From positions 1 through 39,922 of the IMG/VR virus record IMGVR_UViG_3300042549_008298: a stretch of DNA of 39,922 bases. One strand, given 5' to 3'. Within the stretch, counting starts at the first letter, position 1; each line of letters begins with the position of its first letter. The notes under the pieces were generated by a model. It saw only the letters and a list, made by a program, of their open reading frames with translations, did no database searches and was not told the origin of the DNA. Of this stretch, positions 9,346 through 39,922 are shown piece by piece. Origin of the DNA: a virus. The position numbers were made by a program, and so were the translations under genes.

Positions 9346-9377
9346 GTAGCCTAGCGCCCTCACCTCAGAATCTACCC

Positions 9378-20242: not shown

Positions 20243-20252
20243 TCACACCACA

Positions 20253-20867
20253 ATGGCTACTATTGAAGGCAAATCCTCCGCAGAATGGTTCAAAGACGCT
20301 GCCCAACGCCAGAAACGCTCCAACGCCTACGCCAAGTACGAGGAGCCAGCCAAGCCCGAGCCCGCCCGGCAAACGGCAGCCATGCCCAAGCCTGCCAACC
20401 ATGCCAGCCCGGCGAAGGCTGCCGAGCCTGCTAAAAAGGTAGCGGCAGCTAAGCCAACGCCACGCCCAAAAACGAGCGAGGAGGAGGGCCGCGAGCGCAT
20501 TGAAGCCGCAAAGAAAATGATCGCCGATTACCGCCCCGAAAAGGTGGAGATCAAAGAAGCGCCAAAAGGCCCAAGCGAAGCCGAGGCCAAGGCCGCCGAA
20601 TCAGCCCGCCAACGCCGCCTAGACGAGCGGGCAGCCACGCCCGGCCCCGTCGCTATCGCCAGAGGGCTGGGCACTATGGGCGCTGGTGCTGCTACAGGCA
20701 TCGCTAAAGCCACTAAGGAAGCCCTCAAATCGACAGGCCGCCAGTACAGCGGCTTGGCTAAGTACGCCGGTTCCGAAATGGAGAAAGGTAAGCGCATGTA
20801 TGCCGGGATTGGCCGATGGCTTGGCGGTGATCCAGATGCCAAAAAGCGCCTACAGGCTGCCAAGTAG
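20253..20867 (+). CDS. Lys/Ala-rich probable virion protein with Gly/Ala hydrophobic patch (204 aa)
   Basis: No recognised family. Residues 1-130 are Lys/Glu/Ala/Pro-rich and largely helical. Residues about 135-160 (VAIARGLGTMGAGAATGIAK) are a Gly/Ala-rich, mildly hydrophobic stretch that could insert into a membrane. The C-terminus is YAGSEMEKGKRMYAGIGRWL. The pattern suits a protein ejected with the DNA. The ATG at 20253 follows ATCACACCACA. Confidence 0.6.
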   Translation: MATIEGKSSAEWFKDAAQRQKRSNAYAKYEEPAKPEPARQTAAMPKPANHASPAKAAEPAKKVAAAKPTPRPKTSEEEGRERIEAAKKMIADYRPEKVEIKEAPKGPSEAEAKAAESARQRRLDERAATPGPVAIARGLGTMGAGAATGIAKATKEALKSTGRQYSGLAKYAGSEMEKGKRMYAGIGRWLGGDPDAKKRLQAAK

Positions 20868-20989: not shown

Positions 20990-23900
20990 ATGCCCGGCCT
21001 CCAAGACCTCCTTCGCAATCCTCGCCGCCTCCGCCAGTTCGCCGAAACGCCAGGAAACGCCCTCGCCGCCCTCGACTACGCCAGCCAGGCCCGATTGGGG
21101 CGCAGGCCCGCTAGTCGCGCCAGCCAAGCCAAAGAGGACGAGCCGAACACACTAGAAACGGGCGAAGTCATTGAGCAGGTTCAGTTGCCCGACGGCAGCC
21201 TTGTGAAGCCAGCCACGGAGTCGGGCCGTCTAGTGAAGGCCCCCGGCAAGTCAAACCTTTATCTCGACCCGACCACGGGCGAGCCCTACAACGCCGACCC
21301 CACCCAGCCAACTGGGCTACGTTCCGCGTGGAACAATGCCCGGCAGGTCACAAAAGACGGCAAGGTGTTTAAAACCATCTCTGGCGTAGGCGAGCGCGAG
21401 CTAGGCCCCGACCCGAAGGCAGCCGAAGACGCCGCCAAGGCAGAGGCCAAGCGGGCAGCCGAGGACAAGCGGCAGGCTTTCGCTCGCGAACAACGCAAGT
21501 ATCTGCGTGATGCAATTACAGGCGAGCCCGTGCCACTCCAGACAGATGAGGAATGGGCAGCCGCCAAGCAGGCCAAGCAGGCGAAGTTGGATGAGGGCGC
21601 GCGGGTGAAGCGGCTCAAAGATCAGGCCGACGTGATCGACCTCGAAGCCGACCGTATCAGCCTCACCGCCCCCAAACCCGCTAAAGAAGACGAGGAGGCA
21701 TTCAACGCCGCCGAGTCCGCCCTGAGTCAGTTCGCCGCCGGGCAGGACATGGAAAAAGCAGCCGCCAAGTATGCCGCCGCGCCCGCCACCGACGAGGCTA
21801 GCCAGCAGGCCAAGGCTGCCGCCGAAAACTACCTTGCCTACAAGGATAAAGTGAAGCCTGCCAAAGAGGCTGAAAAGAAGGTGCAGGAACTCAAGCTCCG
21901 CGCCCTCGACATCAAAGAGCAGATCATCAACCCGCAAAAGTGGAAGGCAGGCAAGACCGCCAGCCTAGCCGCCCTGCCAGACGACGACCTAGTGGCCGAA
22001 GTGAAGGCGCAGGCCGACATCATCAACGAGCAGGAAGAACAGGCCGTTGGCACCCTCGACACCATCACTAAAGGCCGAAACGCCATTGTCGCCGAACTCA
22101 ATTCCTTCAACGAAGAGTTTCAGAGTCAAGCCGAGCAAGGTTTGACCGCCGAAGAAATGGCCGCCCTCGACATCCAGAAGGCCCGCCTAGAGCAGTCCCT
22201 TGCCGACTACGACGAGCACAACGGCGAAGCCAAGGCCGAGTCAGACGCCGCCTTGAAGGCCGCCGCAGACCGCCGGGACGTGCTGGCCGTGGCTGGCACC
22301 GAGCTAGAAGGCCGGGCCGCCAAGCAGGCCAAAGCCGCCGCCACAGCAAAGGCCAAGTCTGAGACGCTCGCCAAGGCCAAGCCTCTCTATGAGGGGTGGG
22401 CAAAAGGCCTTTACTCCGATGACTGGCGCACAGAAGAGGAAACGCCACGCCTAGCCCAGGAGGCCGCCAAGGCTGGCCTGGATGTGGCAAGCGCCAAGGA
22501 GGCGTTGCAGACCTACCGCCAGCTCGACTGGAGCAACACCCGCCGCGACCCTAAGACCGGCCAGCCCATCGCCGAAGAAGTCCGCACGCTTCCAGACGGC
22601 AACGTGACCGTCAACCCGACCATGTGGGGCGATGCCGATGCCTACAAGAAGGCCGTGGACGCCAGCCAGGGCACGCCAGAAGGCAAGGCTAAGGCACTCG
22701 AAGCCTTCCCCAAACTCCAAGAGATTCACGCCGAGAAGGCCGTGGAGATCCTGAGCCAGTCCGCCAACATCCCCGGCGCTGACAACTTCATGGCATGGCG
22801 CGAGCGCAAGATTGAAGAAGACCAAGCCACGCAGGGCAAGCTAGGCTTCGCCCGCCAGTCCCCCGCCAAGCAGGCCATCGCCTACATGGAGGAAATGAAG
22901 AATCGTTCATGGTTCCGCAAAGCAGGCGAGCAGGTGGGCTTGGGCCTACTGGCAGGCTTCCAAGACATCGCCACGCAGGCGCTAGGAGTGGGCGCAATGG
23001 TAACAGGTTCCGAAACACTCGCCGACCTTGCCGCCGCCAACACTGAGAACACCCAAAGCGTCGTGGGCGCGCAGAACCTCGAAGGCTCCGACACTGATTA
23101 CGCCCTCCGCGTGATGGGCATGGGCGCACGCATGACGCCCGCCGTGGCCGCCATGATCGCCGGGGCAGGAGCCGTGGGCGGGGGCCTTGGCACTGCCGCC
23201 GTTCTGGCAGGCGGGCAGACAGCCGGGAGCATGTTCGCCGACCTCTACCGCACCGCCAAAGAAGACGCCGGGCTTAGCCATGGCGAGGCATGGAAGAAGG
23301 CCGCCTTGCCTGCCGCCTTGGCTGGCACAATCACCGGCCTACTCACGAAGGGCATGGGCGCGACTGGTTTGGAGCGTGTGTTCTCCGACACTGCCACGCA
23401 GGAAACAGCGCGGAACACCTTCAAGGCCATGCTTGGGCAGTTCGTCAAAGGAGCCGCCGAGGAACTTCCCGAGGAAATCGCCGACGAGTATTTTACCACC
23501 ATCCTGCAAGAGTCCGCAGCATCCGCCGATCCCGTCGCTACGTTCAAGAACTTCGCCAACACCCTGCCCGAGCTGGCAGGCGTGACAGCCCTCATGGGCG
23601 GTGCAGGCGCTCTCATGCAGGCCCGCCGCCAAGCAGGCACCGAAGGCCCCGGCATGGCCCCGCCCCCAGAGGCAGGCAGCCCAGCCATGCCCGTGCAGCC
23701 CCGCCCGGCTGAACTCCCCAGCATTTCAAAGACGGGACTCGAAAAAGCAGCCCGAGCACGTCTTGCCTCTTTGCGGGCAAAGAAGGATGGCGAGTTCACA
23801 CTTGGTAAAGATGGCACGCCTGAGCAAGTGACTATCGGTGCCCGCCTTACCGAAGCCGAAGAAAAAACCCTCAAACTGCTAGAGGACTCGTTGGAAGGTG

Positions 23901-26900
23901 GACCCAATCCTGACGTAGAGGCACTGGCCGCAGCTTTTGGCTACAAACTAAAGGAAACCATTGTTGTCGATGATACTCCGACATCTGCCAGTGCCGATGT
24001 GGCGGAGATGGTCGCCAAGTTCAACCCCACGGGCGCGACACCTCTCCCGCAGTCCGTAGCCGCCACAGCCAAGCGCACAGGCAGGCCGCCCGCCGCCGTG
24101 GCTAGGCAGGCCGCCGCAGGTGTGGTCAAGATCGCCCAGGGCCAGAGCCTTGAAAGCCTCGACATCGAGGAGCAGGAGGCGCTTGGATTTGTCAACAAAG
24201 GCGGGAAGATCACGCTAGATACCAAGGTTACGCCCCTCATTTACCTCTACAAAGACAAGCCCGTGCTCCGCAACGCCGCCGCCGAGTGGCTGACAGACGA
24301 GGCCCAGGAAGGCTTGGCGGGCTTGGTCAACCTCACCGAGGCCGAGCGAAAGGCCCAGATCGACGCCGAAGAGGCCGCCGCCAAGGCCAAGCCAGCCGCA
24401 TCGCCAACCAAGAAAGCGAGGCCGTCCGAAATCGAAGATTGGGATTGGACAGAAAAAGGCAAGGTTCGCCGCAGAGCCACAGACGAGTGGTTTGAAGAAG
24501 GCATGGCAAACGAAGATGTGAACGCCGCCTTTGAGCGTGCTCACAGTGTAGGAGGTGAAAACCTTGCCACACACGGAATGGCGAAGTATGGCACCCTATC
24601 AGGAGCGTTCGACGCTCTTATGGGGCTGCTGCAAAACAATGTAGATCCCACTCGCGGCAAGCGTGGCAGTGTAGAGCCAGGGGGGCTCGATGTGGCTCCT
24701 CTTACAGTAGGAAAGGGATCAGCAGCAGCGATGGCTGGCACGACTGGTGGAGGAACCTCTTATAGAGATGGCCCCTTTATTTTGGTGCAATCAGCCGCAG
24801 AATCCAAAAAGGGGAAAGGCATCAAAGATATGGCATCCGTGAGCGCCATTCTTGTCAATGACGCCAACGCTGGACAACTTGAGGCTATCCGCAGAGAGGT
24901 CCACAAACTGCGTCCCGACATCATCGTAGAGCTTTACAGCAAAGCCGACGAAGTGGCACGCCAACTCAACCAGCCCGCCAAGAAAAAGGCTGGACAGGCC
25001 GCGCCTGCCAAGGCAGAATCCACACCGCAGGCTGGTCCAGAGGTTAAGACATCTGACTCATTATCAGAAAACGAGGGTTCAACTCCTTCGCCTGCAACCA
25101 CATTGGATGCTGAGATGGATAGGGCGCACGCGGAATGGCAGGCAGGTAAGAAGGAGGTCGATGATGCTTTCAATGCCACAGAGCCACACTCTAAAGAGCG
25201 CAAAGAGGCGAGGGAAAAGAGAAAGCAGTGGGAGGAGAAGAATGGGCAGGTGCCACCACCATCATCCAGCAATCCACTGTCCGATGTCGGAGCCTTATCC
25301 AACAAGGACTCAGACACCAAGTTCTCACTGGCTGGAACCGGCTGGAGGCTGACCGGCGCAAAGGAAACGTCCATCCGTGGCAAGACCATCCTCTACGTTA
25401 CGAACGGCAAGGACGGCGGCTGGGTGGAAGAGATCGACCTAACCGATCAACATCGCCAGATTCTTGGCCGTTCAGATGAAGTCGTGCCCGTGGAGGAAAA
25501 AGCTCCGCCCGATCGCACGGCAAGCGCCTTTGCCAAGGCCGCCGCAGAGGCAGATGCCGCCAACGATGCGCCAGCACCGGCACAAGAATCGCCTCCTGAG
25601 CCTGCACCAGCAGCTACGCCAACCGGCCTAAGCCCCGCCCAAGAGGCCATCGCCACGCCCGAGCAGCCCCCCGCCGCCCCAGAGCCAGACCTGACACCCA
25701 AGCAGGCCGACCAGATGGCACGGGCCAAGGCTGCCCACGAAAAGAGCAAGGCCACCATTCAAAGGATGGAGAACGACCCCGAGATTAGAGCCAAGAAGCT
25801 CTACGCTGAGGGCATGAGATTTGCCGCCATCAAGCGCCAGATAACCGGCAAGCTGACAGGCAAAGAGCAGGAAGCCAAAGCCAAGCGCGAGGCCAGCAAC
25901 TACGAAGGCAAGGCCGTGTCCGTGGACGGCAAGAACGCCGAAGTCATCGGCAACGCCTTTGGCAAAGTTAAAGTGAAGTTTGAGGACGGCACCAAGGCCA
26001 CTGTGCCCGCCGCCAAGATCAAGCCGCCAGTCGAGGCCGTGCCTGCGCCGGAGGCTGATAAAGTTGAACCTTACGACTTCTCGGCAGCAGGAAAAGAAAA
26101 CGACCAACGATATAAAAGTGCGCTAGAAAAAGCTGGCAACGCAAAGGCCGTGGAAATGCAAAGCCCTACCTTCCCAGGATTGAAGGTGGTCATCACTAAA
26201 GATCCAGAAAATCCGACTAAATGGCGAGCATCACGCTTCGATGCCAAAGGAGCGTCTGGACATCAAGTGTTTGATACCTTTGAAGAAGCGATTGCAGATT
26301 TCACAGGCAAATCAATAGGTCCATCATTTGGGCGTGATTTCGTTGTTACAAGAACATCGGGAGCCCGTAAGTTTGAATCAAAACTGCCCAAAAACCTACT
26401 TGGAGCCTTGCAAGCCCAAGAGCAGGCACATAAACAGGAAAAAACATTCAATATTCCTTCTTTTGAGGAATCCGGCATTACAGACAAAGCTATTCTAAAA
26501 GAGCTTGTTTCTAAAGGTTTGGCGGCAAAAGAATATGGTAAACACACGCCAACATTCACCGCCGCCGCCGAGCTAGCCCACTCAAAAGGCCAGCCGTTCT
26601 GGCCGGGCGAATTTCCAATTGAGCCCGCCCAGACACAAGCCCGCCCCCAAGGCGGCCAGACCGAGGAGGCTAAAGAATTTAGGCGCGTAACGAATCAATC
26701 TATTCAACTAGGGGAATTAGCCCAACAGTCGAGAGACGCGAAAGTTGCAAGACAGACAGAAGCAGAGCAAAGGCTGCAATCACTTAGCGATGCCGATCTT
26801 CTCGGCATGGATAAAAACGAACTAAACGATCTTCACGCTGATTTGACACGCGGGCTTGGGCATCCATATCCAGATAAACAGGTGCTCCTGCGGCAATTAA

Positions 26901-29900
26901 ATAAACTCCGCCAACCCGCCCAGGCCGGGCAGGAAGAGGCCAGCCAGCCTGCGCCTGCCGCCAAGCCGCCTGAGCAGATGACGCCGGAGGAGTGGAGAAA
27001 CAATCACTTTGATGAAAATGAAGACCGTGGACTGCCTGCCGACTACTTTGCAGACCACCAATTCAATGAGACGCGCAAAAACAAAACACAAGTCTCGTCC
27101 GTAAACGGTATCGACTTCCTCACAGATCAATACGGTGGAGTCCACGCTTTCGACGGCGAAAAAAACGTGGGGTATGGCGACGGTAAAGCGTTTGTAGTGG
27201 AGCCCGCATACCAGCGGCGCGGCATAGGCACCGAGATAATCGCGATAGCAAAAAAGGAACTGCCAACAAAGAGAATCGGAAGCCAGACGGCAGCCGGGCA
27301 GGCATTGGTGGCAAGTTTCCACAAGCGCATTCTCGCAGATGCCACCAAAGCAAATAGCCCCGTCAACGCTGCCGCCGTGGACGCCTACGGCATCGCCCTC
27401 CCCGAGGGCTACACCCGCGAAGGCGACCTCTACGTTTACCGCCCCGCCCCCAGCCCGGCCCCAGCCAGCCAGCTAGCCGGGCAGGCGGAGGCCACCAGCC
27501 TTGAAGATGGCGTATTTAGTTATTTGCAGAACAAATATACGGACAAGGAGATTATTGAGATCGCCACAAGGAATAAACGTGGTGCCGAGATAGTCCGTGA
27601 ACTCAAAAAAGAAGGGCTGATTACAAAATCAGGCGAGTTTAAGCGCGTCGAAAAAACAGATCCAGAAACAGGAGAGAAGGTAACAATATCGCCAGGGCGT
27701 GACACATTTGAATTTCGCTGGGGTGTAATGGCTTGGGAACTTAGAGACACTGTGGAGGAATACGAGGCCACCAAAGCCAGCCAAGCCAAGGCCCAGCCCG
27801 CCCAGCCAGCCGGGCAGGCGGAGGCGTTCAAAGTGGGCGATTTTGTCCGCGCTAACGGGAAAGGCCCAGTCTTCAAGATTGAATCCATCGGCTCTGACGG
27901 GTGGTTGTATCTCGCCAACGGGCAAGGCTCATACTCAGCGGAAGATGCGGCAAAAATTCTTGTGAAATCCACCGAAGACGCTGCCACAAAAGAGGCGGTT
28001 AAAGGTGGATTCCCTGGATTTGATAGCCAGCCCGCCCAGCCGCCCCGCCCAGCCACGCCAGAGGGCCGGGCAGAGGCCGTCCTAGCCGAGTATGAGGCCA
28101 CCGTCCGCCAAAGCCTCGTCGGCAGGCCAGACAAGGCCGCCAAGGATTTGGCAGGCCGCAAGCTCGACCTTGCCAAGCGCCTGCGGGCTAGGCTCAAGGC
28201 CATGACAGGGGCCGTGGACTATGACGTTTACGCCAAAGAACTGCGCGAAAAGAGCGGAGAGTTGGAAGTCAAGCCAGTGGGCAGAAAGGGCAGCATCCTC
28301 TTCATCAACCCTGAAAAGCTCATTGACCGCCTCACCGCCAAGCACGCCACCACCGAGGCCGCCCGCGAAGGCATGGACACGTTCATTCTGCATGAGTTCA
28401 TCCACAAGGCCGCCATCGGTAACATGGATGGAGCCAAGATCATTGGCCTTTACAACCTTCTCACCCCCGAGGCCAAGGCCGCCAGCAAGGCCCTCTACCT
28501 CTCCGACAGTGGCCTTACCGACTTCTGGCAGGATGACAAGGAGTTTGCCGCAGCCCATGAATGGTTTGCCCAGCTAGTCGAAGCCCGTCTTCGCGGCAAG
28601 ATCAGCAACCAAGCCGAGATCGAGGCCAGCCAAGACCCGGCCTTCCGCGACCGCCTGCTTGCCCTGCTCCGCGACTTCGTGGCCCAGCTCCGCGACATCG
28701 CCAAACTTGTCACCGACAAGGCCCAAGCCGCCCGCATTGAGGCCGAGGCAGACGCCGTGCAGGCCATCGTGGCCGACATGGCCGCCAAGGCCGGGCTGGA
28801 GATACAGGCCGGGCCGGAGGCTGCCGGGCTAATTAACACGCGACCTCTTGAGGAGGCCGAGCGTAATGCGCGTAAACGCCTAGAAAGTTTGCAGTACCCA
28901 AGTGTGGGGGGCGGGAAAAGCGCCGACAAGGTTGACAAACTGCGGAAAGAATACGCGCAAGAGAAGGCGTCCAGACAAGCGGACCTAGATACTGCGAGCG
29001 CCAAACTCAAAGCCGCTTACGCGCAGAACGAGGCCCAGCCCGCCCCGCAGGCAAAGCCAGCCCAGGCCAGCCAGACCGATGAAGCCGACAAGGCACTTGC
29101 CGAGGCCTTCACCGGCCTGTTTCTGCCGCCTAGCGGGCTGCGTCTGAAACAGACAAGGGCCCAGTTGATTAAAGCTACCGAAGACTCTTCTGACTGGAAA
29201 GACTGGTATCAGCGCCACGAAGACACGCTCACCGAGTTTTTTGGTGTCGATGCAGACCTTTTCCAAAGAATCCTTTCTGTCACCTCCCAAGCGGCCTCAG
29301 TTAAGGCAAACGTAGGGCTGGCCCTGAAAGCGTATGTCCAACTCAAAACAGGCGCACCCTTTGAAGGCTATTTGCCTGCGGTGATTAAAAACCTGCAACG
29401 GGTCAAAGACGCCGCCCAGGTCCAAGGCCAAAAGATTGCAGCATACCAACAGGCCAACACCGGAGCCGACGAGGTCGTTGTTGTCGATCGGCATATCTCA
29501 AGGATGCTTTTTGGCGTTGATTCACCAACAGCAAAACAGTTTCAAAAAGGCCAGCAAGTGTTAACACAGATAGCAAACGTGCTAGGCTGGCAGCCAAGAC
29601 AAGTTCAAGCCGCTATGTGGGCGGCATCCATCCGAAAAGCAGGCAACACCCCAGAATCTTATGACTCTTACCTCCGAGAACTCAACAAACGCGGAACCCT
29701 CAACGACCGAATTGGATCGGTTGTTCCAACAGGTATCCAAAATCAAAGATCAGGAGGAAGTGGAGGACTTGATTCTACAGGAAGCAATCAAGCAAGCCTC
29801 CGACTTCCCCCGCAGGGCAGCCTAGAGCAAACCGACCTACCACGCGACCGCCGAGACGCCATGATGAAGGCGGCCTCTGTGCTGGTTGACGCAGGCGTGA

Positions 29901-32900: not shown

Positions 32901-35900
32901 TGGCCGACCTCAACAAGATGAAGGTGGACGAGCTTTTGCCCATGGCTGGCATGAGCGCCCGCAAGTCAGACGGCAAGGCATCCATTGCAGACAGCGTGCT
33001 GAGCACACTGGACCTCTACTTTAACCCCGACGATTCCATTTCCTACTCCTACGGTGGCGACTTCCAGACAAACAAGGACAACGCGATGGATGAGAAGGTA
33101 GCCAAGTGGACTGACGAAATGATTGTGGAGCAAGCCAAGGCCCGCCGTGAGGCCGCCGAGGCCAGCAAGGCAGCCAAAGAGAAGGCACTCACCAACCCCG
33201 AAACAGCCGATGAATGGGACCGCTTTGTGTGGAGCACAGGACGCAAAGCCATGAGCGCGGAAGAGGTGAAGGAAGTTTTGAAGCTAAAAAGCTCACAGGC
33301 GAGAAACGAGGCCGTCCGCAAAAAGGGCGAGTCCATCCTCACCCCCGAGCAACTAGCCGCCTACGACGCCGTGCGTGGCATCGACCGCAAGGCCCAAGAG
33401 CAGGCCCGCACAGAGGCCAAGGCCCGCGTTTATGGCGTGGCATCCGGCGTAGAGGCCGACATCATCGAAACAAAGCACACACAGAAAGGCCACGACCTCT
33501 TTGTGGTGAAGCTCTCCGAACGTGTGGAGCGCCCCGTTTACGACAGCCTCAACGCCGCCTCCAAGAAACTCGGCGGCTACTACTCGTCCTACGCCAAGGG
33601 CGGAGCCGTGCCCGGCTTCCAGTTCACCACCCGAGCCGCCGCCGAGAACTTCATTGCCGTATCCAAAGGCGAGACAGTGGACCAGAAAGAGCAGATTCAG
33701 GAACGCCAGGAGGCCAAGAAGTCCGCCACCGCCAGCCGCCTGACCGCCGTGGCTGAGGTTCTGGATGGCAAGGCTGATGGCATCCTGAACGCCGACCGCA
33801 AGACCAACACCGCCAAGCGTGCCCGCGAGGCCGCCGGGCAAGAAGCCACGGCCCGAGGGATGAAAGCCATGGCCCAGACGATGCGCAACCTAGCCGCCGC
33901 CATGGAATCAGGCGAGGCCACGCACCTAGACGGCGTGCGGATGGGAACGCATGTGGAGACACTGGACGGTATGGCGCGTGGAGCTATGACGTATTGGATT
34001 CGTGACCGCAAGATGGGCATGATGGACCGCGAAAAGACCGAGGCAGGAGGCCCGACGGCGGAGATGATGGATGCCACCCGCATTCCATACCCATACCTCG
34101 ACAAAGGCGATATACTGCGATTGGTAGAGAAAGGCCGTGAAACGCCCGGCGCGAAGCTGCTGGCCGAGCGCGTGGCAAAGATCCGCATGAACGAGAACGA
34201 AGGGCAAGCCGTAACCCTGCGCTCCGACTCCGAAATGGACGATGTGAAGGAACTCGCCCAGAAAGTCACCGAGCGCGGCAAGCCCGTCTGGGACACGATC
34301 AAGTGGAAGTACGAGACGTACGACCGCCTCAAGGCCATGGGCCTGACCAACCTGCCAAGCCTGCGGGCTGCCCTGCGCGAGTTCCTGCAATACCGAGGCC
34401 AAGCAGCCAAAGAAGACCCCATCAAAAAGATGGAGCGCGAGCTAGTCGGCATGAAGCTACCCGGCTTCTTCCCCACCCCCCGCGCCGTCATTGACGAGAT
34501 GGTGGGTATAGCAGGCATTGAGCCCGGCATGAAGGTACTGGAGCCAAGCGCAGGCAAAGGCGACATTGCCGAGGCAATGCAGGAGGCTGGGGCCGAGGTG
34601 GACGCTATCGAGCTTTCCAACCGCCTCCGCGACATCCTCACCGCTAAAGGCGTCAACGTCATCGACAACGACTTTACCAGCGTAGAGCCAGAGCCAAAAT
34701 ATGATGCCGTGGTGATGAACCCGCCCTTTGAGAACGGGCAGGATATGGAGCACATCCGGCACGCCTATAAGTTCCTGAAACCGGGCGGCAAGCTCGTCGC
34801 CATCATGTCCGCCGGGCCATTCTACCGCCAAGACAAGCAGGCTACGGCCTTCCGTGAGTGGCTGGACAGCGTAGGCGGCAGCCATGAGGCCATGCCAGAG
34901 GGCAGCTTCGCAGGCTCCGACGCCTTCCGCCAGACAGGCGTGCGTACTCAGATGGTGACAATTACCAAGCCCGCCGACGAAGGCCAGCCCGCCAGCCTAG
35001 CCCTGCCGCCCGCCGGGCAGGTTGTCACGGCGGGGCGGGATGCCACCGACACCGAGACCCTATATCAGCGTTTGTTAAAAAAATACGACGAGGAGATTGA
35101 TCCTCGTCCAGTCGCCGACTTTGATGCCGACCAATCCCCGATCACCGTAGAGTTTGCTGGCAAAAAGTGGGAAATCTCTATTAGAGACAAAACCTTTTTA
35201 GCTGAAGATGTCGAAGATTCGGACAATGGTTATAATGCCCATCTCGACAAAGAACTGACCGTTTACCAAGATGCCTCATGGGGAAATGTGCCGCGCAACA
35301 TCTCAGACATCTGGGAAGAAGCGCCCGGATCATGGTGGCAAGTTCCAACTGTAGATTCCAAAGACCGCGATACCTGGGATGCAGAGCAGCCATATTACGC
35401 CGTCGAAACCAACGATGGAGAATCAGGCTGGATGGACGAAGAACAAGTGACCCTATCCTTGCACGATGCGGTCAAAATGTATGTCAAAGAGTCGTCCGAA
35501 GACAAGAGGCTCGTTTACTACACCGGGGACACCACACGCGGCAAAGATCGCTTTGGAGATTGGGACGATATTCCCAAGCTGGAGATTTTAGCCCAGCCGT
35601 CCTTTGTCGAAAAACTACAGCGCGACTTCCCCGGCATGACCCGCGAGGAAGCCATCGACATCGCCAAAACGCGCAACACAGACAACACGGACACCTTCCT
35701 TGTCGCCCAAGCCTACGCCCGCCACAACTACACCGACTACGACGACCGACTGAAGAACGCCCGCAACCTGGACGAAGACACCTCGCGTGAACGCTCCAAG
35801 GCTCGCTTTGAACTCCGGGAAAGCATTCAGGCAGTCATGGAACGCTGGACAAACACCTCCAGCGACGAGTCCGGCCAAGTCATCCCTCTCTCCGAACGCT

Positions 35901-38900
35901 TCAACCCCGCCAGCCAATCCATCCTCCGCAACCCGCCCGCCCCCGAAGGCGGCCCGGCAGCCAGCCAAGAGGCCAGCCAGCCCGAGGCCGACGAAGAGGC
36001 CGACCCAGACTTGGCCGCCTTCATGGCAGAGCAGCAACGCCTAGCCGAGGAGGAGGCCGCCGCCAGGGAGGCGCTACGCAACGACCCCGACGCCATCGAC
36101 GCCGTGCAGGCAAGTGGCAAGATGTCGGCGCGCAACCTGTCCAAACAGTTCGAGTATCCCGAAGCCCGCGCCGTGTATCAGGCTTTGACAGCCGCCCGCG
36201 ACCAGCTAGGCGGGCCGGAAACCGTGCAACTCGACAAGCTCCGCGAATGGGCCAAGAAGACGTTCGAGAGCGACCCCGAGAAGTACGTGCAGTGGGCCGC
36301 CGACATGGCCGAAGAAAGCAAGCTCCTCGACGTGGACGAGCAGGCCGTACTTGGGCAGGCGTTCCAGTTCCTCACCCGCGAGGCCCGCCTCACTGGCGAC
36401 AAGAATATCCGCGCCCTCCTCAACAAGGTAGGCAACTACTACCTGGACACCGGCACCCGCCTAGCCCAGGCCATGAGCGCCCGCCGTGACCCGTTGGAAA
36501 GCCCGCAGGAACGCTGGACCAAAGCCCTCGACATCGTGTTTGGCCCAAGCGAGGCCGTCCGCCGTAAGCTCCGCATCCTGCCCACCCAGGCAGGCAAGGC
36601 CCGCCGCATCGCCAGCCTGGAGGCCGAGCTAGCCGAGGCACGGGGCAGCCGCCGGGCAGACGTGGAGGCCGCGCTAAAGACGGCCCGCGCCCAGGAGACG
36701 AAAGAGGAGTTGCTGGAGAAGGACGACGCCGAGAGCGAGAAGATCAAGCAAGCCGTGCTCAAGAACATGGGAGTCACCGAAGACGACCTTATGCTCTCCG
36801 GCACCGACCGCGTAGCCCTGCAATCCGCCATCCTCGACCTCCCTGCCGTCAAAGAAGGCCTCGACGCCTACAAAGGCAAAGACAACGACGGCTACAACAT
36901 CATGCGCCTCGCCTTCCGAGGCTTCTCCGACGAGCACATTGCAAACTATCTCAACCTCAACCAAGACGACGTAGGCAAGTTCATCCACGACGCCACCGCC
37001 GCCATCATCCGCCCCGCCGTGGCCGCCCAGGTCAAGGCGGGCACAGGCTTTGGAGGCCTCATCAAGGCTGGCTTTGCCAGGCTCAAGAAGGCCGTGGGGC
37101 TGGGGCTGCCGCCAAAGATTAGGCCTTTGGAAGACTGGCGGACACTCATCAAAGGCAAAAAACAAACTCTCGACCAAGTGACGGCAGAGGTAAACCGCGT
37201 GATGGGCTATGCCCTGCAATCCGCCAAGGCTCGCAACTCCCGCAAGCTAATGTCCAAAGTCATCAACACGCCAAACGGCCAAAAGGTCCGCGTGTTTGTG
37301 CCATTCGACCCCGACGACATGGCGAACTACTACGCCTTCGCCCGCGAATACACGGCAGCCAAGGCCAGCGCCTTCGACAAGGTTTACGAATACTGGATCA
37401 ACTGGCCCCTCCTGTCAGGCCCGCAGACCCAGGTGGCAAACATCACCGGCAACGCCGCGCAGGTGGCATGGCACTACACCGGCCAGCGCCTCGCCGAGGC
37501 AACACTGAACCTTGCCTACCAAGACCCGAACTCCGCGCAGTTCCGCGAGTTCAAGCACATTTTAAAAGGCTTCTGGCAGGGCATCGGCCCAGCCTTTGAG
37601 ATGGCCCGCGAAACCTTCCTCACCGAAGGCGACACCATACGCCACAAATACCTCGGCCAGCCGCTTGAAATCGACGTGGTGGACGGCGACCTCGACAAGG
37701 TGGGTAACATCCGCGCCAGCGTGGGCGGGCAGGCAGGCCGAATCAGCCGCCTGCCGGGCCGTGTGCTCCGCTTCACAGACGCCTTCTTCAAGACGGCCAT
37801 CATGTATGCCGAGGCATCTGCCGTGGCCTACCGCCGGGCCCATGTGGAGGCCAAGCGCCAAGGCCTGAAAGGGCAGGCGCGGGCCGCCTTCATCGACACC
37901 GAGATTGCCAACACCCTCAACGACACATCCAGCGCCGTGTGGGGGGAGGTGATGAAAACCGCCGAGGAACTCCTGTTCCAAGACGACAACTCCGCAACCG
38001 AGATCGTGGACACCGTGCTAGGCGGCTATAAAGGCATCAAAGACTTGGAAAAGCTACTCGCTGAGGCCGAGGCCAAGGGCGACTCAGACCTTGCCGCCAA
38101 GCTCCAAAAACGCATCCGCTCCCGTAAATTCGTGGGTAGCCTCATGCGCTGGATCTTCCCATTCCAACGCACCCCCACCAACATCGTGCGCACCGGCATC
38201 AAAAAGGCTGGCGGCTCGGCTATCAGCCTGCTCTACGGCCTCACGCGGGCTGGCTGGCTGGCAATGGGCAAGAAAGGCGTGCCCGTGATTAAATCCTACC
38301 CGAAGGCCATGCAGATCAAAGACGCCTCCGAGACGCTGCTTGCCGGGCTTGGCTGGCTGGCCTTGGCCTCCATGCTGGAAGGTGACGACAACGACGACGA
38401 AAAGCCTGTGCTACTTGTCGGCACCCGCTCGCACTCCCTCAAGGAGCGGGCCGCCACAGATCAGTTCTTGCGCAAATACGGCGGGGAAAACTCCATTGTC
38501 TGGCAGGACGGCAAAGGCAAGGTGCTTGGCAGCCTGCCCTTTGGCCGCTACGAGCCCGCTGCCACGCTCCTGACAACGTGGATCGACGCCTACCGCAACT
38601 ATCAGGAGGTCAAACGCCTCAAGTCACAGGGCGAAAACGCCAGCTACTCCACCTACATGCTGTCCAGCCTCGTCTCGTCACTGGAGGATAAATCATTCCT
38701 GCAAGGCTTCGCCAACGCCATGCAGTTTGTCCGCGACGTGGAAGAGAAGCGCGAGAATCCCGACCAAAGCGCCGGGGTAAAAATGCTGATGAACAACGTG
38801 ATTCCCAATCTCATCAAGCAGCCGCTCCGCAACATGGACGACGTGCTCCGCGAGCGCACAACGGCAGGCCCAGGCTATGCCGCCCTGCCAAACCCCACCA

Positions 38901-39361
38901 TTGCCCCCAAACTGCCAGTCTTCGCCGCCCAGCCCAAAATCAGCACAACCGGCGAGCGCCTGCCCAAAGCCTTCACGCCGCCTGCCCGCCTGCTATTCCA
39001 GGCCAACACCAAAGTCACACCCCAGCCCGACGCACTTCTCTACCGCGCCAACCGCCTACACCCAACGAAACGCTGGAGCCCGCAACCGCTCCAACGGGAC
39101 GACTACAACGCCGACCCTCCCGGCAAGGCCAAGCCCGTGCCCATCATAGATCCGGCCAAGAAACGCCAGTTTGCCGAACTGGCAGGCCGCCTTTATGCCG
39201 CCAATGCCGCCAAGGTGGCAGCCAAGGCCATGCCAAGCGAGAAGGCAGCGCCGGGCGAGAGCTTAATTAAGGCGTTCAAGAAGGCCCGCGAAGACGCCAT
39301 GGCCGCCGCCAGGGCACAGGCCCACGCAATGGGCTTGCACAAAGCCACAGCCACGCCATAA
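20990..39361 (+). CDS. Giant polyvalent virion-type protein (6123 aa) with peptidase-, glycosylase-, clamp- and methyltransferase-like domains
   Basis: One uninterrupted frame of 18.4 kb. From N to C: charged helical region (residues 1-640); hydrophobic segment (about 644-877); unrecognised module (1147-1327); small beta domains; GNAT-like segment (2036-2117); HEFIH metallopeptidase-like domain (HExxH at 2468-2472); HhH-GPD glycosylase-like segment (about 2740-2900, VDRH at 2832-2835); sliding-clamp-like segment (3345-3556, MPMRV at 3549-3553); N6-adenine methyltransferase (EPSAGKG near 4518, NPPF at 4577-4580); beta-rich domain (about 4680-4970); and helical C-terminal region (5030-5780) with WPLLSGPQTQVAN and FPFQRTPTN. 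Ala/Gln/Pro linkers divide the modules. This matches the polyvalent proteins described by Iyer, Aravind and colleagues, thought to be co-injected with DNA, as P1 DarB is. No helicase motifs are visible. Confidence 0.85.
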   Translation: MPGLQDLLRNPRRLRQFAETPGNALAALDYASQARLGRRPASRASQAKEDEPNTLETGEVIEQVQLPDGSLVKPATESGRLVKAPGKSNLYLDPTTGEPYNADPTQPTGLRSAWNNARQVTKDGKVFKTISGVGERELGPDPKAAEDAAKAEAKRAAEDKRQAFAREQRKYLRDAITGEPVPLQTDEEWAAAKQAKQAKLDEGARVKRLKDQADVIDLEADRISLTAPKPAKEDEEAFNAAESALSQFAAGQDMEKAAAKYAAAPATDEASQQAKAAAENYLAYKDKVKPAKEAEKKVQELKLRALDIKEQIINPQKWKAGKTASLAALPDDDLVAEVKAQADIINEQEEQAVGTLDTITKGRNAIVAELNSFNEEFQSQAEQGLTAEEMAALDIQKARLEQSLADYDEHNGEAKAESDAALKAAADRRDVLAVAGTELEGRAAKQAKAAATAKAKSETLAKAKPLYEGWAKGLYSDDWRTEEETPRLAQEAAKAGLDVASAKEALQTYRQLDWSNTRRDPKTGQPIAEEVRTLPDGNVTVNPTMWGDADAYKKAVDASQGTPEGKAKALEAFPKLQEIHAEKAVEILSQSANIPGADNFMAWRERKIEEDQATQGKLGFARQSPAKQAIAYMEEMKNRSWFRKAGEQVGLGLLAGFQDIATQALGVGAMVTGSETLADLAAANTENTQSVVGAQNLEGSDTDYALRVMGMGARMTPAVAAMIAGAGAVGGGLGTAAVLAGGQTAGSMFADLYRTAKEDAGLSHGEAWKKAALPAALAGTITGLLTKGMGATGLERVFSDTATQETARNTFKAMLGQFVKGAAEELPEEIADEYFTTILQESAASADPVATFKNFANTLPELAGVTALMGGAGALMQARRQAGTEGPGMAPPPEAGSPAMPVQPRPAELPSISKTGLEKAARARLASLRAKKDGEFTLGKDGTPEQVTIGARLTEAEEKTLKLLEDSLEGGPNPDVEALAAAFGYKLKETIVVDDTPTSASADVAEMVAKFNPTGATPLPQSVAATAKRTGRPPAAVARQAAAGVVKIAQGQSLESLDIEEQEALGFVNKGGKITLDTKVTPLIYLYKDKPVLRNAAAEWLTDEAQEGLAGLVNLTEAERKAQIDAEEAAAKAKPAASPTKKARPSEIEDWDWTEKGKVRRRATDEWFEEGMANEDVNAAFERAHSVGGENLATHGMAKYGTLSGAFDALMGLLQNNVDPTRGKRGSVEPGGLDVAPLTVGKGSAAAMAGTTGGGTSYRDGPFILVQSAAESKKGKGIKDMASVSAILVNDANAGQLEAIRREVHKLRPDIIVELYSKADEVARQLNQPAKKKAGQAAPAKAESTPQAGPEVKTSDSLSENEGSTPSPATTLDAEMDRAHAEWQAGKKEVDDAFNATEPHSKERKEAREKRKQWEEKNGQVPPPSSSNPLSDVGALSNKDSDTKFSLAGTGWRLTGAKETSIRGKTILYVTNGKDGGWVEEIDLTDQHRQILGRSDEVVPVEEKAPPDRTASAFAKAAAEADAANDAPAPAQESPPEPAPAATPTGLSPAQEAIATPEQPPAAPEPDLTPKQADQMARAKAAHEKSKATIQRMENDPEIRAKKLYAEGMRFAAIKRQITGKLTGKEQEAKAKREASNYEGKAVSVDGKNAEVIGNAFGKVKVKFEDGTKATVPAAKIKPPVEAVPAPEADKVEPYDFSAAGKENDQRYKSALEKAGNAKAVEMQSPTFPGLKVVITKDPENPTKWRASRFDAKGASGHQVFDTFEEAIADFTGKSIGPSFGRDFVVTRTSGARKFESKLPKNLLGALQAQEQAHKQEKTFNIPSFEESGITDKAILKELVSKGLAAKEYGKHTPTFTAAAELAHSKGQPFWPGEFPIEPAQTQARPQGGQTEEAKEFRRVTNQSIQLGELAQQSRDAKVARQTEAEQRLQSLSDADLLGMDKNELNDLHADLTRGLGHPYPDKQVLLRQLNKLRQPAQAGQEEASQPAPAAKPPEQMTPEEWRNNHFDENEDRGLPADYFADHQFNETRKNKTQVSSVNGIDFLTDQYGGVHAFDGEKNVGYGDGKAFVVEPAYQRRGIGTEIIAIAKKELPTKRIGSQTAAGQALVASFHKRILADATKANSPVNAAAVDAYGIALPEGYTREGDLYVYRPAPSPAPASQLAGQAEATSLEDGVFSYLQNKYTDKEIIEIATRNKRGAEIVRELKKEGLITKSGEFKRVEKTDPETGEKVTISPGRDTFEFRWGVMAWELRDTVEEYEATKASQAKAQPAQPAGQAEAFKVGDFVRANGKGPVFKIESIGSDGWLYLANGQGSYSAEDAAKILVKSTEDAATKEAVKGGFPGFDSQPAQPPRPATPEGRAEAVLAEYEATVRQSLVGRPDKAAKDLAGRKLDLAKRLRARLKAMTGAVDYDVYAKELREKSGELEVKPVGRKGSILFINPEKLIDRLTAKHATTEAAREGMDTFILHEFIHKAAIGNMDGAKIIGLYNLLTPEAKAASKALYLSDSGLTDFWQDDKEFAAAHEWFAQLVEARLRGKISNQAEIEASQDPAFRDRLLALLRDFVAQLRDIAKLVTDKAQAARIEAEADAVQAIVADMAAKAGLEIQAGPEAAGLINTRPLEEAERNARKRLESLQYPSVGGGKSADKVDKLRKEYAQEKASRQADLDTASAKLKAAYAQNEAQPAPQAKPAQASQTDEADKALAEAFTGLFLPPSGLRLKQTRAQLIKATEDSSDWKDWYQRHEDTLTEFFGVDADLFQRILSVTSQAASVKANVGLALKAYVQLKTGAPFEGYLPAVIKNLQRVKDAAQVQGQKIAAYQQANTGADEVVVVDRHISRMLFGVDSPTAKQFQKGQQVLTQIANVLGWQPRQVQAAMWAASIRKAGNTPESYDSYLRELNKRGTLNDRIGSVVPTGIQNQRSGGSGGLDSTGSNQASLRLPPQGSLEQTDLPRDRRDAMMKAASVLVDAGVKTPAELAARLDKLAPGGQLRQYSRAFWRLMTGFDSTLEEKPDWQAVYQASPAPVAAKADQTLWADLSRFFASENSDGSRAAALKDLKAGTASDDAKGYLIDLLANPNYKGTAKSLAPQLIARLKATMPPATSPEAPTTAEANVPVTAEMVSKWFRAYYGGNAPVTKVLPGLFKIGDSLYGLYSVNKLTDQQVLNGVPFGDSQMLIKEEETAEEVPALPASVTPAQAEAVAEEAAMPEPAKQAAPFDAAAAKGQKKFLLAEVAAAVKAAPKRADMTQEQKDAITNLEDKFRNWDSLNEEERKTYASELAAAKADAERLIGYVTIEVPGDGTFTILNEKEALYRFQKKADKFPVSQAKDDLPAKPTAQAPTAVPALKKAKTTADVVAAVFPMVSTDTTRGEGLQKVKGEGAYLWATNGRFAVRVEHENGGGKGQEAIVYDEKGNAQPWPEGEQNPTMEAIIPDDKAFTPYTLDTARWFSLMSQARAIIKELPNESSTASKAVSLYRNPDGSLGLFASDINRGDYAHNIQPEAKILAAYSPDYFQTVLRVARNLGNEQIELRIGDDVSPATLRAGKALFVLMPMRVNGAPAYAPQAARPAPPVTAEASPAAEPPAQPGQTREEAAEAARAIAAQDPSIPPPAPDDLETLQALRDRANRKPYSSDKLTPARLAVGIRAGWVTKTKEAKLTEKGSSQLSEWQQQQSAHDSALGALSDKLVDEAVSKWDRENDPTSWEAINAAKQAAAQPGQEAAQPASIEQRISEAEAAGVVLSEKDKSEIRRLDKAAADFTKQANQLSGYDPMNKGTAFPMGVGYTKMTKRSSQRIDTGVKKAGEAVVASNKAKAATAMLDNLLAGKGTDADKAAKIERTKDYRREVVAKLLNWKKGDKVGTFEITRINKNSEGYPTSYNFKGDGIIAGVNDKVDVVREVFKGNRAEFEQMVNAAKQPSQPTQAPAPEGQGGQVQPITGFDSARAFIAQLRKGEVTAEQVRTAWAQLKAQRPAILADLNKMKVDELLPMAGMSARKSDGKASIADSVLSTLDLYFNPDDSISYSYGGDFQTNKDNAMDEKVAKWTDEMIVEQAKARREAAEASKAAKEKALTNPETADEWDRFVWSTGRKAMSAEEVKEVLKLKSSQARNEAVRKKGESILTPEQLAAYDAVRGIDRKAQEQARTEAKARVYGVASGVEADIIETKHTQKGHDLFVVKLSERVERPVYDSLNAASKKLGGYYSSYAKGGAVPGFQFTTRAAAENFIAVSKGETVDQKEQIQERQEAKKSATASRLTAVAEVLDGKADGILNADRKTNTAKRAREAAGQEATARGMKAMAQTMRNLAAAMESGEATHLDGVRMGTHVETLDGMARGAMTYWIRDRKMGMMDREKTEAGGPTAEMMDATRIPYPYLDKGDILRLVEKGRETPGAKLLAERVAKIRMNENEGQAVTLRSDSEMDDVKELAQKVTERGKPVWDTIKWKYETYDRLKAMGLTNLPSLRAALREFLQYRGQAAKEDPIKKMERELVGMKLPGFFPTPRAVIDEMVGIAGIEPGMKVLEPSAGKGDIAEAMQEAGAEVDAIELSNRLRDILTAKGVNVIDNDFTSVEPEPKYDAVVMNPPFENGQDMEHIRHAYKFLKPGGKLVAIMSAGPFYRQDKQATAFREWLDSVGGSHEAMPEGSFAGSDAFRQTGVRTQMVTITKPADEGQPASLALPPAGQVVTAGRDATDTETLYQRLLKKYDEEIDPRPVADFDADQSPITVEFAGKKWEISIRDKTFLAEDVEDSDNGYNAHLDKELTVYQDASWGNVPRNISDIWEEAPGSWWQVPTVDSKDRDTWDAEQPYYAVETNDGESGWMDEEQVTLSLHDAVKMYVKESSEDKRLVYYTGDTTRGKDRFGDWDDIPKLEILAQPSFVEKLQRDFPGMTREEAIDIAKTRNTDNTDTFLVAQAYARHNYTDYDDRLKNARNLDEDTSRERSKARFELRESIQAVMERWTNTSSDESGQVIPLSERFNPASQSILRNPPAPEGGPAASQEASQPEADEEADPDLAAFMAEQQRLAEEEAAAREALRNDPDAIDAVQASGKMSARNLSKQFEYPEARAVYQALTAARDQLGGPETVQLDKLREWAKKTFESDPEKYVQWAADMAEESKLLDVDEQAVLGQAFQFLTREARLTGDKNIRALLNKVGNYYLDTGTRLAQAMSARRDPLESPQERWTKALDIVFGPSEAVRRKLRILPTQAGKARRIASLEAELAEARGSRRADVEAALKTARAQETKEELLEKDDAESEKIKQAVLKNMGVTEDDLMLSGTDRVALQSAILDLPAVKEGLDAYKGKDNDGYNIMRLAFRGFSDEHIANYLNLNQDDVGKFIHDATAAIIRPAVAAQVKAGTGFGGLIKAGFARLKKAVGLGLPPKIRPLEDWRTLIKGKKQTLDQVTAEVNRVMGYALQSAKARNSRKLMSKVINTPNGQKVRVFVPFDPDDMANYYAFAREYTAAKASAFDKVYEYWINWPLLSGPQTQVANITGNAAQVAWHYTGQRLAEATLNLAYQDPNSAQFREFKHILKGFWQGIGPAFEMARETFLTEGDTIRHKYLGQPLEIDVVDGDLDKVGNIRASVGGQAGRISRLPGRVLRFTDAFFKTAIMYAEASAVAYRRAHVEAKRQGLKGQARAAFIDTEIANTLNDTSSAVWGEVMKTAEELLFQDDNSATEIVDTVLGGYKGIKDLEKLLAEAEAKGDSDLAAKLQKRIRSRKFVGSLMRWIFPFQRTPTNIVRTGIKKAGGSAISLLYGLTRAGWLAMGKKGVPVIKSYPKAMQIKDASETLLAGLGWLALASMLEGDDNDDEKPVLLVGTRSHSLKERAATDQFLRKYGGENSIVWQDGKGKVLGSLPFGRYEPAATLLTTWIDAYRNYQEVKRLKSQGENASYSTYMLSSLVSSLEDKSFLQGFANAMQFVRDVEEKRENPDQSAGVKMLMNNVIPNLIKQPLRNMDDVLRERTTAGPGYAALPNPTIAPKLPVFAAQPKISTTGERLPKAFTPPARLLFQANTKVTPQPDALLYRANRLHPTKRWSPQPLQRDDYNADPPGKAKPVPIIDPAKKRQFAELAGRLYAANAAKVAAKAMPSEKAAPGESLIKAFKKAREDAMAAARAQAHAMGLHKATATP
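22920..23625 (+). other. Hydrophobic Gly/Ala-rich segment of the giant protein
   Basis: Residues about 644-877. LGLLAGFQDIATQALGVGAM, MTPAVAAMIAGAGAVGGGL, GTAAVLAGGQTAGSMFADLY and AALPAALAGTITGLLTKGMG are long uncharged stretches resembling membrane-active segments of ejected phage proteins. They are followed by the acidic ELPEEIADEYFTTILQESA. This pattern recurs in large injected proteins and may form the channel or membrane-docking part (inference). Confidence 0.55.
24430..24970 (+). other. Unrecognised conserved-looking module of the giant protein
   Basis: Residues about 1147-1327. It includes FEEGMANEDVNAAFERAHSV, HGMAKYGTLSGAFDALMGLL, a Gly-rich stretch, GPFILVQSAAE, SVSAILVNDANAGQLEAIRR and DIIVELYSKADEVARQL. 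The alternation of strands and helices indicates a folded alpha/beta enzyme-like domain and its less extreme codon use stands out from the Ala/Gln linkers. I cannot name a family. Confidence 0.45.
27095..27340 (+). other. GNAT acetyltransferase-like segment of the giant protein
   Basis: Residues about 2036-2117. DGKAFVVEPAYQRRGIGTEI carries the V-x-P-x-Y-Q-R-R-G-I-G-x-x-I core of GNAT motif A (acetyl-CoA pyrophosphate loop), followed by the expected helix (IIAIAKKELP) and a later ALVASFHKRI helix. The segment is shorter than a full GNAT domain, so it may be minimal or degenerate. Local codon use is more A/T-rich than the flanking linkers. Confidence 0.6.
28200..28620 (+). other. HExxH metallopeptidase-like domain of the giant protein
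   Basis: Residues about 2405-2544. A beta-strand part (ELEVKPVGRKGSILFINPEK) precedes the zinc-binding helix DTFILHEFIHKAAIG (H2468, E2469, H2472). A downstream helix AAAHEWFAQLVEARL offers E2524 as a third ligand, 52 residues later, the spacing of a gluzincin. Phage polyvalent proteins often carry such peptidase domains, thought to process the protein itself or cut host proteins (inference). Confidence 0.65.
29200..29690 (+). other. HhH-GPD DNA glycosylase-like domain of the giant protein
   Basis: Residues about 2738-2900. LFQRILSVTSQAASVKANVG parallels the 'LLSAQATDxSVNKA' helix of endonuclease III; GYLPAVIKNLQRVKD parallels its 'GLYNSKAENI' helix; and EVVVVDRHISRMLFG (V2832 D2833 R2834 H2835) parallels 'xIAVDTHIFRVxNR', whose Asp is catalytic. 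The closing helix is VLGWQPRQVQAAMWA. The order and spacing match. A clear helix-hairpin-helix GVGxxTA motif is not seen. I recall this segment being common in phage proteins as a domain of unknown function. Confidence 0.5.
31020..31660 (+). other. DNA polymerase III beta (sliding clamp)-like domain of the giant protein
   Basis: Residues about 3345-3556. LWATNGRFAVRVEHE resembles the 'ATDGHRLA' strand of clamp domains. ILAAYSPDYFQTVLRVARNL, QIELRIGDD and a final FVLMPMRV closely follow the third domain of beta clamps, which ends 'YVVMPMRL'. A clamp-like fold in an injected protein could bind DNA or host polymerase partners. The segment is about 210 residues, shorter than the ~365 of a full clamp, so it may be partial. 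Confidence 0.6.
34440..34975 (+). other. N6-adenine DNA methyltransferase domain of the giant protein
   Basis: Residues about 4484-4662. LPGFFPTPRAVIDEMV leads into SAM-binding motif I VLEPSAGKGDIAEAM (4516-4530), acidic loop VDAIELSNRL, motif IV YDAVVMNPPFENG (NPPF 4577-4580) and LKPGGKLVAIMSAG. All core residues are intact, so the domain should be active on adenine in DNA. It could protect incoming DNA from restriction, as in P1 DarB. The helicase domain found with the methylase in DarB is not visible here. Confidence 0.85.
36080..38300 (+). other. Conserved C-terminal helical region of the giant protein
   Basis: Residues about 5030-5770. Helical repeats (LDKLREWAKKTFESDPEKYV, KVGNYYLDTGTRLAQAMSAR) lead to EYWINWPLLSGPQTQVANIT and FVGSLMRWIFPFQRTPTNIV. 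The last two motifs are hallmarks I recall from the C-termini of very large phage virion proteins. Hydrophobic helices follow (ISLLYGLTRAGWLAMG, LLAGLGWLALASML). This region may anchor the protein in the virion or membrane (inference). Confidence 0.6.
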
Positions 39362-39377: not shown

Positions 39378-39922
39378 ATGCAGCGCCTCATCAACTCCCA
39401 CCTCACTTTCGACAATGACGCCGCCGAGAACGCATTCGTTCAGTACGTCATCGCCGAAGTGGAGAACTGCCGCCAACTTATGGGCGTCCAGACCACCAGC
39501 CGAGACTACACCGTTGGTTCACTTCTTTGGCGCTGGGACAACTACCAGCTAGCCTACGAGCAGGACTTCGAGCACCGCAAGGCCAACTGCCTGCTTTTCC
39601 GCGAGACAAACCTATCGCTGAACCTGCCCATGACGCCGGTTAACCAGCACGGCGACAAGATGGACAACGACTTGCTTTCTACGCCCGCCTTTTTTGGTCC
39701 AAACGCCGAGGGGGCCGAGGACGAAAACCCGGCGATTGAGATTTTGATGCAGCGCCTCAAGCACCGCGCCAAGCTCACAAAGCTAAACGAGGTGGGCAAA
39801 AAGGCCAAGCAAGGCAGCCTCATCCGAGGCCAGGAGATCACGCGGGCCGGGCTAAGCGAGGCCTATTACATGAAGCCCGTCGTTACCCAAAGCGTCACGC
39901 TGGACGGCAAAGTCATCAAAGA
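39378..39922 (+). CDS. Possible portal or head-completion protein, 5' part only
   Basis: Open to the end of the window (181 complete codons). It starts MQRLINSHLTFDNDAAENAF and contains SRDYTVGSLLWRWDNYQLAY, NCLLFRETNLSLNLPMTPVN, MDNDLLSTPAFFG, ILMQRLKHRAKLTKLNEVGK and IRGQEITRAGLSEAYYMKPV. The 'KxxxxxxxxxGxLIRGxExxxxxxxE' segment resembles portal proteins and the place downstream of TerL suits one, but no decisive motif is visible. Its start lies 16 nt after the giant gene's stop, behind an A/C-rich leader. Confidence 0.45.
   Translation, partial: MQRLINSHLTFDNDAAENAFVQYVIAEVENCRQLMGVQTTSRDYTVGSLLWRWDNYQLAYEQDFEHRKANCLLFRETNLSLNLPMTPVNQHGDKMDNDLLSTPAFFGPNAEGAEDENPAIEILMQRLKHRAKLTKLNEVGKKAKQGSLIRGQEITRAGLSEAYYMKPVVTQSVTLDGKVIK

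Follow-up and report, generated by a model that had tools for sequence, protein, structure and literature searches.

We found a complete transfer RNA (tRNA) gene with anticodon CAU inside, and in frame with, a giant open reading frame (ORF) in the IMG/VR virus record IMGVR_UViG_3300042549_008298. The entire record, 39,922 bases, was analysed and is called the window below. The giant ORF encodes 6123 residues, none of them cysteine, and its product is likely, judging from sequence, to be an injected polyvalent protein. One message appears to encode both the protein and the tRNA. The explanation that we favour, with moderate confidence, combines packaging and injection of a giant polyvalent protein with a nested, alternative tRNA(CAU) gene.

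A giant reading frame and its nested tRNA gene

The giant ORF starts with ATG at 20990, stops at 39361 and has no internal stop codons, which is exactly the single frame given in the first-pass annotation of this DNA. Related records were gathered by four protein scans of a viral collection, with the giant C-terminus, the methylase, the giant N-terminus and the terminase as queries; a fifth scan, with the HhH module as query, returned one record. We compared 13 fetched records (with pieces rejoined) and two short records (G013 and G015) with the window (G000). The homologous giant is one uninterrupted frame in seven records, the window and six others from IMG/VR, with ∼4.4–6.1 thousand residues (6126, 6041, 5815, 5656, 4591, 4517 and 4413 codons from stop to stop). 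Codon position 3 had the most differences in 42 of the 43 aligned 500-residue bins taken from four record pairs, with one bin tied; margins were narrow in several bins, mostly in diverged stretches of G005/G009, and unaligned modules fall outside this comparison. For the window and G001, differences at codon positions 1, 2 and 3 numbered 313, 202 and 937. Since the frame is intact in seven records and differences concentrate at the third codon position, the giant is a genuine protein-coding sequence rather than a chance frame or an artefact of assembly or annotation. Its first 2000 residues had no match in a tblastn search of the phage collection, and megablast with window bases 1–24000 matched no phage record.

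The tRNA gene of 75 nucleotides (nt), i.e. 25 codons, is read in frame as a linker at residues 1346–1371 of the giant. It was identified by Rfam (50.7 bits, E-value 4e-8) in agreement with ARAGORN, on the sense strand. The tRNA was detected in eight of 15 related records, always at the same place and with the same frame offset in the giant gene. The other seven lack coverage of the site: G003, G011 and G013 start downstream, and G007, G008, G010 and G015 end before it, G015 nine bases past the linker DNA that precedes the tRNA. A tRNA-independent scan with the protein just upstream returned nine records, namely the eight tRNA carriers and G015. With the window counted, the tRNA is thus present in all nine records that reach the site; these are not independent (G009 and G014 are nearly identical) and carry seven distinct tRNA sequences of about four types. 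The conserved linker DNA that anchors the site is directly followed by the tRNA at every locus except L022, which ends 9 bases beyond the anchor.

The exact tRNA pattern was found in seven contigs of the viral collection, in every case in this giant gene. Four pattern matches in genome contigs were attributed to chance, as ARAGORN called none of them a tRNA. In a blastn search of the phage collection the window tRNA produced partial or short matches only, several of them to annotated phage tRNAs. No tRNA was seen in the four regions checked that encode large related proteins of distant phages (F116, phiARM81mr, FGH and 1.205.O), and the idea of a general trait of such giants was dropped. Elsewhere in the related records ARAGORN reported two 87-nt tRNAs, both probably false positives: a tRNA-Gln in G004 (L070:12145-12231:+), antisense to the giant, and a tRNA-Lys in G010 (L076:19828-19914:+), on the opposite strand and outside the giant.

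Searches of open-licence full texts turned up no report of an in-frame tRNA within a gene for a phage protein. As a precedent we found nothing closer than the tRNA-Sec predicted within selB of Alphaproteobacteria (Mukai 2021, PMC8124441), presented in that text as the first such report in bacteria, with mitochondrial cases cited. In both systems a whole sense tRNA, with a length that is a multiple of three, lies in a protein ORF, and a trade-off between RNA and protein is predicted. Unlike the selB case as described, the tRNA reported here belongs to a phage, has anticodon CAU and an initiator-like end, is located in the first quarter of the protein instead of a C-terminal extension, and varies as a unit among closely related records.

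Fold, exchange and possible use of the tRNA

Cloverleaf pairing held for 97.9% of cells, and for no more than 55% once the partner was shifted by 1–3 columns; we consider this the stronger test, because relatedness inflates covariation counts. Both sides were altered by compensatory change in 12 of 20 tRNA pairs among the seven distinct sequences, and in none of 500 shuffles were the pairing, the count of doubly changed cells or the covariation score as high as in the real alignment. Even within one tRNA type a pair can change on both sides: 7:65 reads A-U in G001 but G-C in G004. Invariant columns (standard numbering) include U8, A14, G18, A21, U33, T54, C56, A58, C61 and CCA, which we take to be the canonical tRNA nucleotides. 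The full cloverleaf was the minimum in four of five examples folded, in one of them not as the centroid. Codon-position invariance within the tRNA (12, 13 and 11 of 25 for positions 1, 2 and 3) was not discriminating, since the upstream linker is equally even (10, 12 and 11 of 20). A chance tRNA is ruled out by the covariation and by presence in nine of nine records. These patterns indicate that the tRNA is maintained as RNA by selection.

The acceptor end matches that of the E. coli initiator metZ (C1xA72, G2:C71, C3:G70, A73 and CCA), whereas elongator tRNA-Met has G1-C72. This initiator-type end is invariant in the seven distinct sequences, except that A73 is T in G012.

In closely related records the tRNA can differ as a whole: G006 and G009 share 144 of 150 bases before it and 117 of 120 after it (∼97% identity), and 36 of 60 inside (nt 7–66). 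It also forms the border where downstream modules change. G005 and G006 have the same tRNA (75/75) and agree at 3 of the 30 bases that follow; in the window and G002 the tRNAs agree at 72 of 75 positions, followed by 7 matches in 30. Such divergence right after the tRNA 3′ end is what one would see if the tRNA were mainly a joint at the DNA level, with conserved ends providing short homology for module exchange and a fold inherited from past captures; joints between other modules, too, are met again at similar places. We consider this rather improbable, because it explains neither why pair 7:65 shows compensatory change inside a single type nor why G006 and G009 have different tRNAs between unchanged flanks. 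Far less probable still is an attachment site, or a complementing tRNA in tRNA-dependent lysogeny of the kind described in PMC10865867: neither a tyrosine integrase (PF00589) nor a serine recombinase (PF00239) was found in any of 14 records, some of which may be incomplete.

According to the explanation that we favour, the giant would be stored in the head of the phage and enter the host along with the DNA by being threaded through the tail. Its HEFIH protease-like module may cut it into working units. The conserved N- and C-termini would serve packaging and ejection, and the swappable middle modules (the methylase, glycosylase-like and clamp-like ones, and ART, InPase and others in relatives) could act on nucleic acids and proteins of host and phage. 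When a transcript is translated into the giant, the tRNA(CAU) stretch would be read as linker; in other transcripts the tRNA would fold, and RNase P and 3′ processing would excise a Met-type phage tRNA, possibly to be charged and used, while the message is destroyed. The model in PMC8124441 has the same outline, with folding and processing yielding the tRNA and destroying the message, so that protein and tRNA are alternatives.

We put forward more tentatively that the message is bifunctional, being either translated into the injected giant or processed by RNase P to an initiator-like tRNA, the body of which is exchanged with ends and anticodon kept so as to evade tRNA-cutting host nucleases. 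By analogy with a hypothesis set out in PMC10264068, varied tRNA bodies with constant ends and anticodon, and with U37, would suit evasion of tRNA-cutting defences; the nuclease-evading phage tRNAs discussed there likewise have an unusual anticodon loop. The same source describes phages as generally avoiding a tRNA-fMet gene when a nuclease targets its anticodon, unlike the present case, in which an initiator-like tRNA is kept. If the bifunctional message is real, it would be, by the literature searched, the first case of a phage protein gene with a tRNA gene nested in it, and it would couple translation capacity to the supply of an injected protein.

Several observations weigh against the explanation that we favour. 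The covariation set consists of seven related sequences of about four types, and the control shuffles equalled the count of pair types in 94 of 500 cases and that of doubly changed pairs in 4. The window tRNA folds no more than moderately better than its shuffles (z −1.76), with a minimum-energy fold that is not the full cloverleaf, and the T-loop of G001 and G004, UGCAAAU, is unusual. The anticodon stem is without the three G:C pairs of initiator tRNA, and position 37, usually a purine, is U in all sequences in place of the initiator A37; because of these two features we describe the tRNA as initiator-like at its acceptor end and not as an initiator tRNA. As less than a quarter of the giant precedes the tRNA, its excision would leave little of the giant in that message, and strong processing seems costly. 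An in-frame start with a Shine–Dalgarno-like sequence within 450 nt after the tRNA was not common to the eight giants tested, four of which had none; given the lack of such a shared start, the part of the giant after the tRNA is probably not translated separately. Finally, no polyvalent-type Pfam domain, LPD included, reached the cut-off in the giant of the window.

U37 and the missing G:C stem disfavour a normal decoding or initiating tRNA, and would fit a tRNA that is never free but acts in cis as a switch on the mRNA, limiting output of the giant through RNase P cleavage or synthetase binding. The same logic was proposed for the tRNA-Sec nested in selB, in the account of PMC8124441. We hold this alternative to be unlikely, though by no means negligible: the invariant CCA and C1xA72 suit a free, charged tRNA better, the more so as A72 falls at a third codon position, where G would apparently be silent.

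In every record that reaches the site, the tRNA and the protein share one sense-strand stretch of a phage. A nested gene of this kind makes directly testable why phages carry tRNAs, whether an initiator-like tRNA is of use in infection, and how the cell resolves a message that is both an mRNA and a tRNA precursor.

The giant as a candidate injected polyvalent protein

Cysteine was found at 0 of 6123 positions in the window giant versus 44 of 4010 (∼1.1%) in 13 other chosen ORFs of the window, a set that includes three cysteine-free ORFs (0/550) between the terminase and the giant. The DNA of the giant does not simply lack TGC and TGT triplets, because its other two frames hold 161 and 165 of them. 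Cysteine counts are 3, 1, 0, 4, 1 and 4 for the other six intact giants, and three distant giants have none (0/3190, 0/2634 and 0/3130); two large proteins of F116 have 4/2129 and 1/1649, and the second large protein of FGH has 8/868. The virion RNA polymerases of N4-like Achromobacter phages are described as cysteine-free in PMC3915230, where disulfides are argued to impede passage through the tail; the cysteine-free injected polymerase of N4 type is also covered in PMC4837373. The window giant resembles these polymerases, as described in the two sources, in being a very large cysteine-free phage protein, while the N4-type one is injected; the window giant differs in being larger and mosaic and in having no polymerase module found in the Pfam scan. 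The missing cysteines offer sequence evidence for ejection, and this is checkable on other phages.

The suggestion of the first-pass annotation that the giant is an injected polyvalent protein gained support. We consider it likely, because a terminase lies upstream, a weakly portal-like gene occupies the slot after the giant in G001 (phrog_1216, 6.5e-4), HEFIH and a methylase are present, relatives carry polyvalent domains and cysteine is absent. In the theory set out by Iyer et al. 2017 (PMC5512222), polyvalent proteins are late-gene polypeptides with disparate modules, a HEXXH peptidase-like motif and a methylase. The giant has disparate domains in one polypeptide (a significant methylase and a conserved HEFIH, the others being weak) and a setting among virion or late genes (the terminase, and the weak portal match in G001); known polyvalent-type Pfam domains occur in its relatives, with InPase, ART-PolyVal-like, LPD1 and LPD5 as in PMC5512222. 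Unlike the proteins described in that paper, it has a nested tRNA and glycosylase-like and clamp-like modules, and no LPD scored in the window; the word ‘clamp’ is absent from the main text of that paper. The giant probably adds a new member to the polyvalent class, one that is very large and highly mosaic. A further likeness is to the massive DarB-like protein of Bcep22-like phages, which comes from a ∼61 kb GC-rich podophage (PMC9144972); the serine tRNA gene of those phages is not described as nested in the corresponding part of that source, unlike the tRNA here. No superfamily 2 helicase after the methylase, the mark of a DarB-type protein, was found in the Pfam scan of the whole giant.

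The giants are mosaic: the first ∼850 and last ∼1100 residues are recognizable in all records that reach them, and middle modules are swapped. Gly-rich hydrophobic stretches in the N-terminal core are a possible membrane or ejection segment. The C-terminal core with the SGPQTQVAN and FPFQRTPTN motifs, pointed out in the first-pass annotation, is indeed conserved, being recognizable in all relatives that reach it, and is without a Pfam match. Module joints recur at similar places across giants. We also observed repeated Ala/Pro/Gln-rich linker DNA between modules (window 27456–29067 and elsewhere), which could promote module exchange through homology.

The domains proposed earlier fared differently. 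The N6-methyltransferase was confirmed by Methyltransf_23 (1.7e-10), with NPPF at residue 4577, and falls in PHROG families of large phage proteins (phrog_15406, 2.4e-205). For the peptidase, the HEFIH motif (residues 2468–2472) holds in all eight giants that reach that point (seven intact ones and the partial G012), whereas no peptidase Pfam profile matched the region. The GNAT-like assignment retained a partial Pfam match that does not reach the cut-off.

Matches of the HhH-GPD-like module (residues ∼2730–2880) were weak throughout: in Pfam, DUF7178 at 4.6e-5, under the cut-off, and Ogg-HhH at 0.06; N-glycosylase/DNA lyase at 0.086; and, among solved structures, Ogg2 with E-value 0.01 for the single sequence. 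With a profile of two identical rows Ogg2 dropped to 0.39 and ranked below both an ABC transporter and an adaptor protein, and an AlphaFold2 model from two identical rows had low confidence (mean predicted local distance difference test score, pLDDT, 44). The K...VDRH segment of this module resembles what we take to be an HhH hairpin and catalytic Asp. In the clamp-like module, the end FVLMPMRV corresponds to YVVMPMRL of E. coli DnaN, with 35% identity over 40 residues; the pairwise E-value is 5e-4, but hhalign gave a probability of 30%. A profile search of PDB placed two beta clamps third and fourth (E-values 0.93 and 1.7), behind two unrelated chains; the single sequence retrieved no clamp, with a ribosomal protein (0.39) as the only match, and the AlphaFold2 model (six rows) was again of low confidence (mean pLDDT 34). 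Neither module had a tblastn match in the phage collection. Their glycosylase-like and clamp-like identities are leads, not proofs.

Among the relatives' extra modules, 10 of 25 were scanned. The G001 giant has an InPase (2.9e-37) and two ART-PolyVal-like modules under the cut-off, all missing from the window, along with a clamp and a methylase, and is without the window-type HhH module. The G004 giant has a clamp, a DUF7178 module of its own placed elsewhere (1.8e-20), LPD1 (2.2e-13) and LPD5 (4.4e-12), and no methylase was found in the module scanned. A C5-methylase (2.1e-32) and a phosphoribosyltransferase-like stretch under the cut-off were detected in the partial giant of G003 (L075:11234-13579:-). 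No profile matched one further module of G001, the two of G005 or those of G012 and G011.

This comparison bears on the first-pass proposal of a ‘care package’, in which glycosylase, clamp and methylase would deal jointly, as a unit, with the incoming DNA. In its favour, the methylase is certain and the other two are weakly supported; such a unit seems quite unlikely to us all the same. By homology to the window modules, all three co-occur only in the window and G002, where they are ∼98–100% identical; across the homologous giants they are swapped independently, so the package was not upheld as a conserved unit. The nested, covarying and replaceable tRNA is, in our view, the part that a specialist would not expect, and a stronger discovery than the care package. 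Neither the nested tRNA nor the absence of cysteine had been mentioned in the first-pass annotation.

Coordinates and neighbouring genes

Table 1. Features of the giant, its surroundings and one relative (window positions unless a locus is given)
Feature	Position	Strand	Remarks
Terminase large subunit	16753..19182	+	Upstream of the giant
Three small ORFs (186, 160 and 204 aa)	19200..20867	+	Between terminase and giant; together 0 Cys in 550 aa
Giant ORF	20990..39361	+	6123 aa, ∼665 kDa, zero Cys; mosaic, probably polyvalent-type protein
Gly-rich hydrophobic stretches, residues ∼645–880	22922..23629	+	Within the conserved N-terminal core
Conserved linker DNA (KKKAGQ...)	24980..25025	+	Immediately precedes the tRNA
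Complete tRNA gene, anticodon CAU, 75 nt	25026..25100	+	CCA encoded; ARAGORN and Rfam
GNAT-like fragment	27158..27280	+	Acetyltransf_7 1.4e-4, partial, under Pfam cut-off
Zincin-like module with HEFIH (28391-28405)	28067..28789	+	In all seven intact giants and G012
HhH-GPD glycosylase-like module	29183..29635	+	DUF7178; Ogg2-like K...VDRH segment 29423-29629
Clamp-like module	30950..31699	+	31529-31648 aligns with DnaN C-terminus (...MPMR)
DNA adenine-type methyltransferase domain	34400..35101	+	NPPF 34718-34729
Conserved C-terminal core	35987..39358	+	SGPQTQVAN, FPFQRTPTN and LPFGRYEP motifs
Next gene (start only, cut by window end)	39378..39920	+	No PHROG match
InPase and two ART-PolyVal-like modules of G001	L055:3886-4728, L054:14202-14669, L054:12384-12938	-	Profile scan

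The three small cysteine-free ORFs ahead of the giant possibly encode further ejection proteins. At a distance from these genes, window positions 5291–8857 and 9285–9911 hold genes of replication and recombination: an SbcC-like ATPase, then a DNA helicase, and an SSB.
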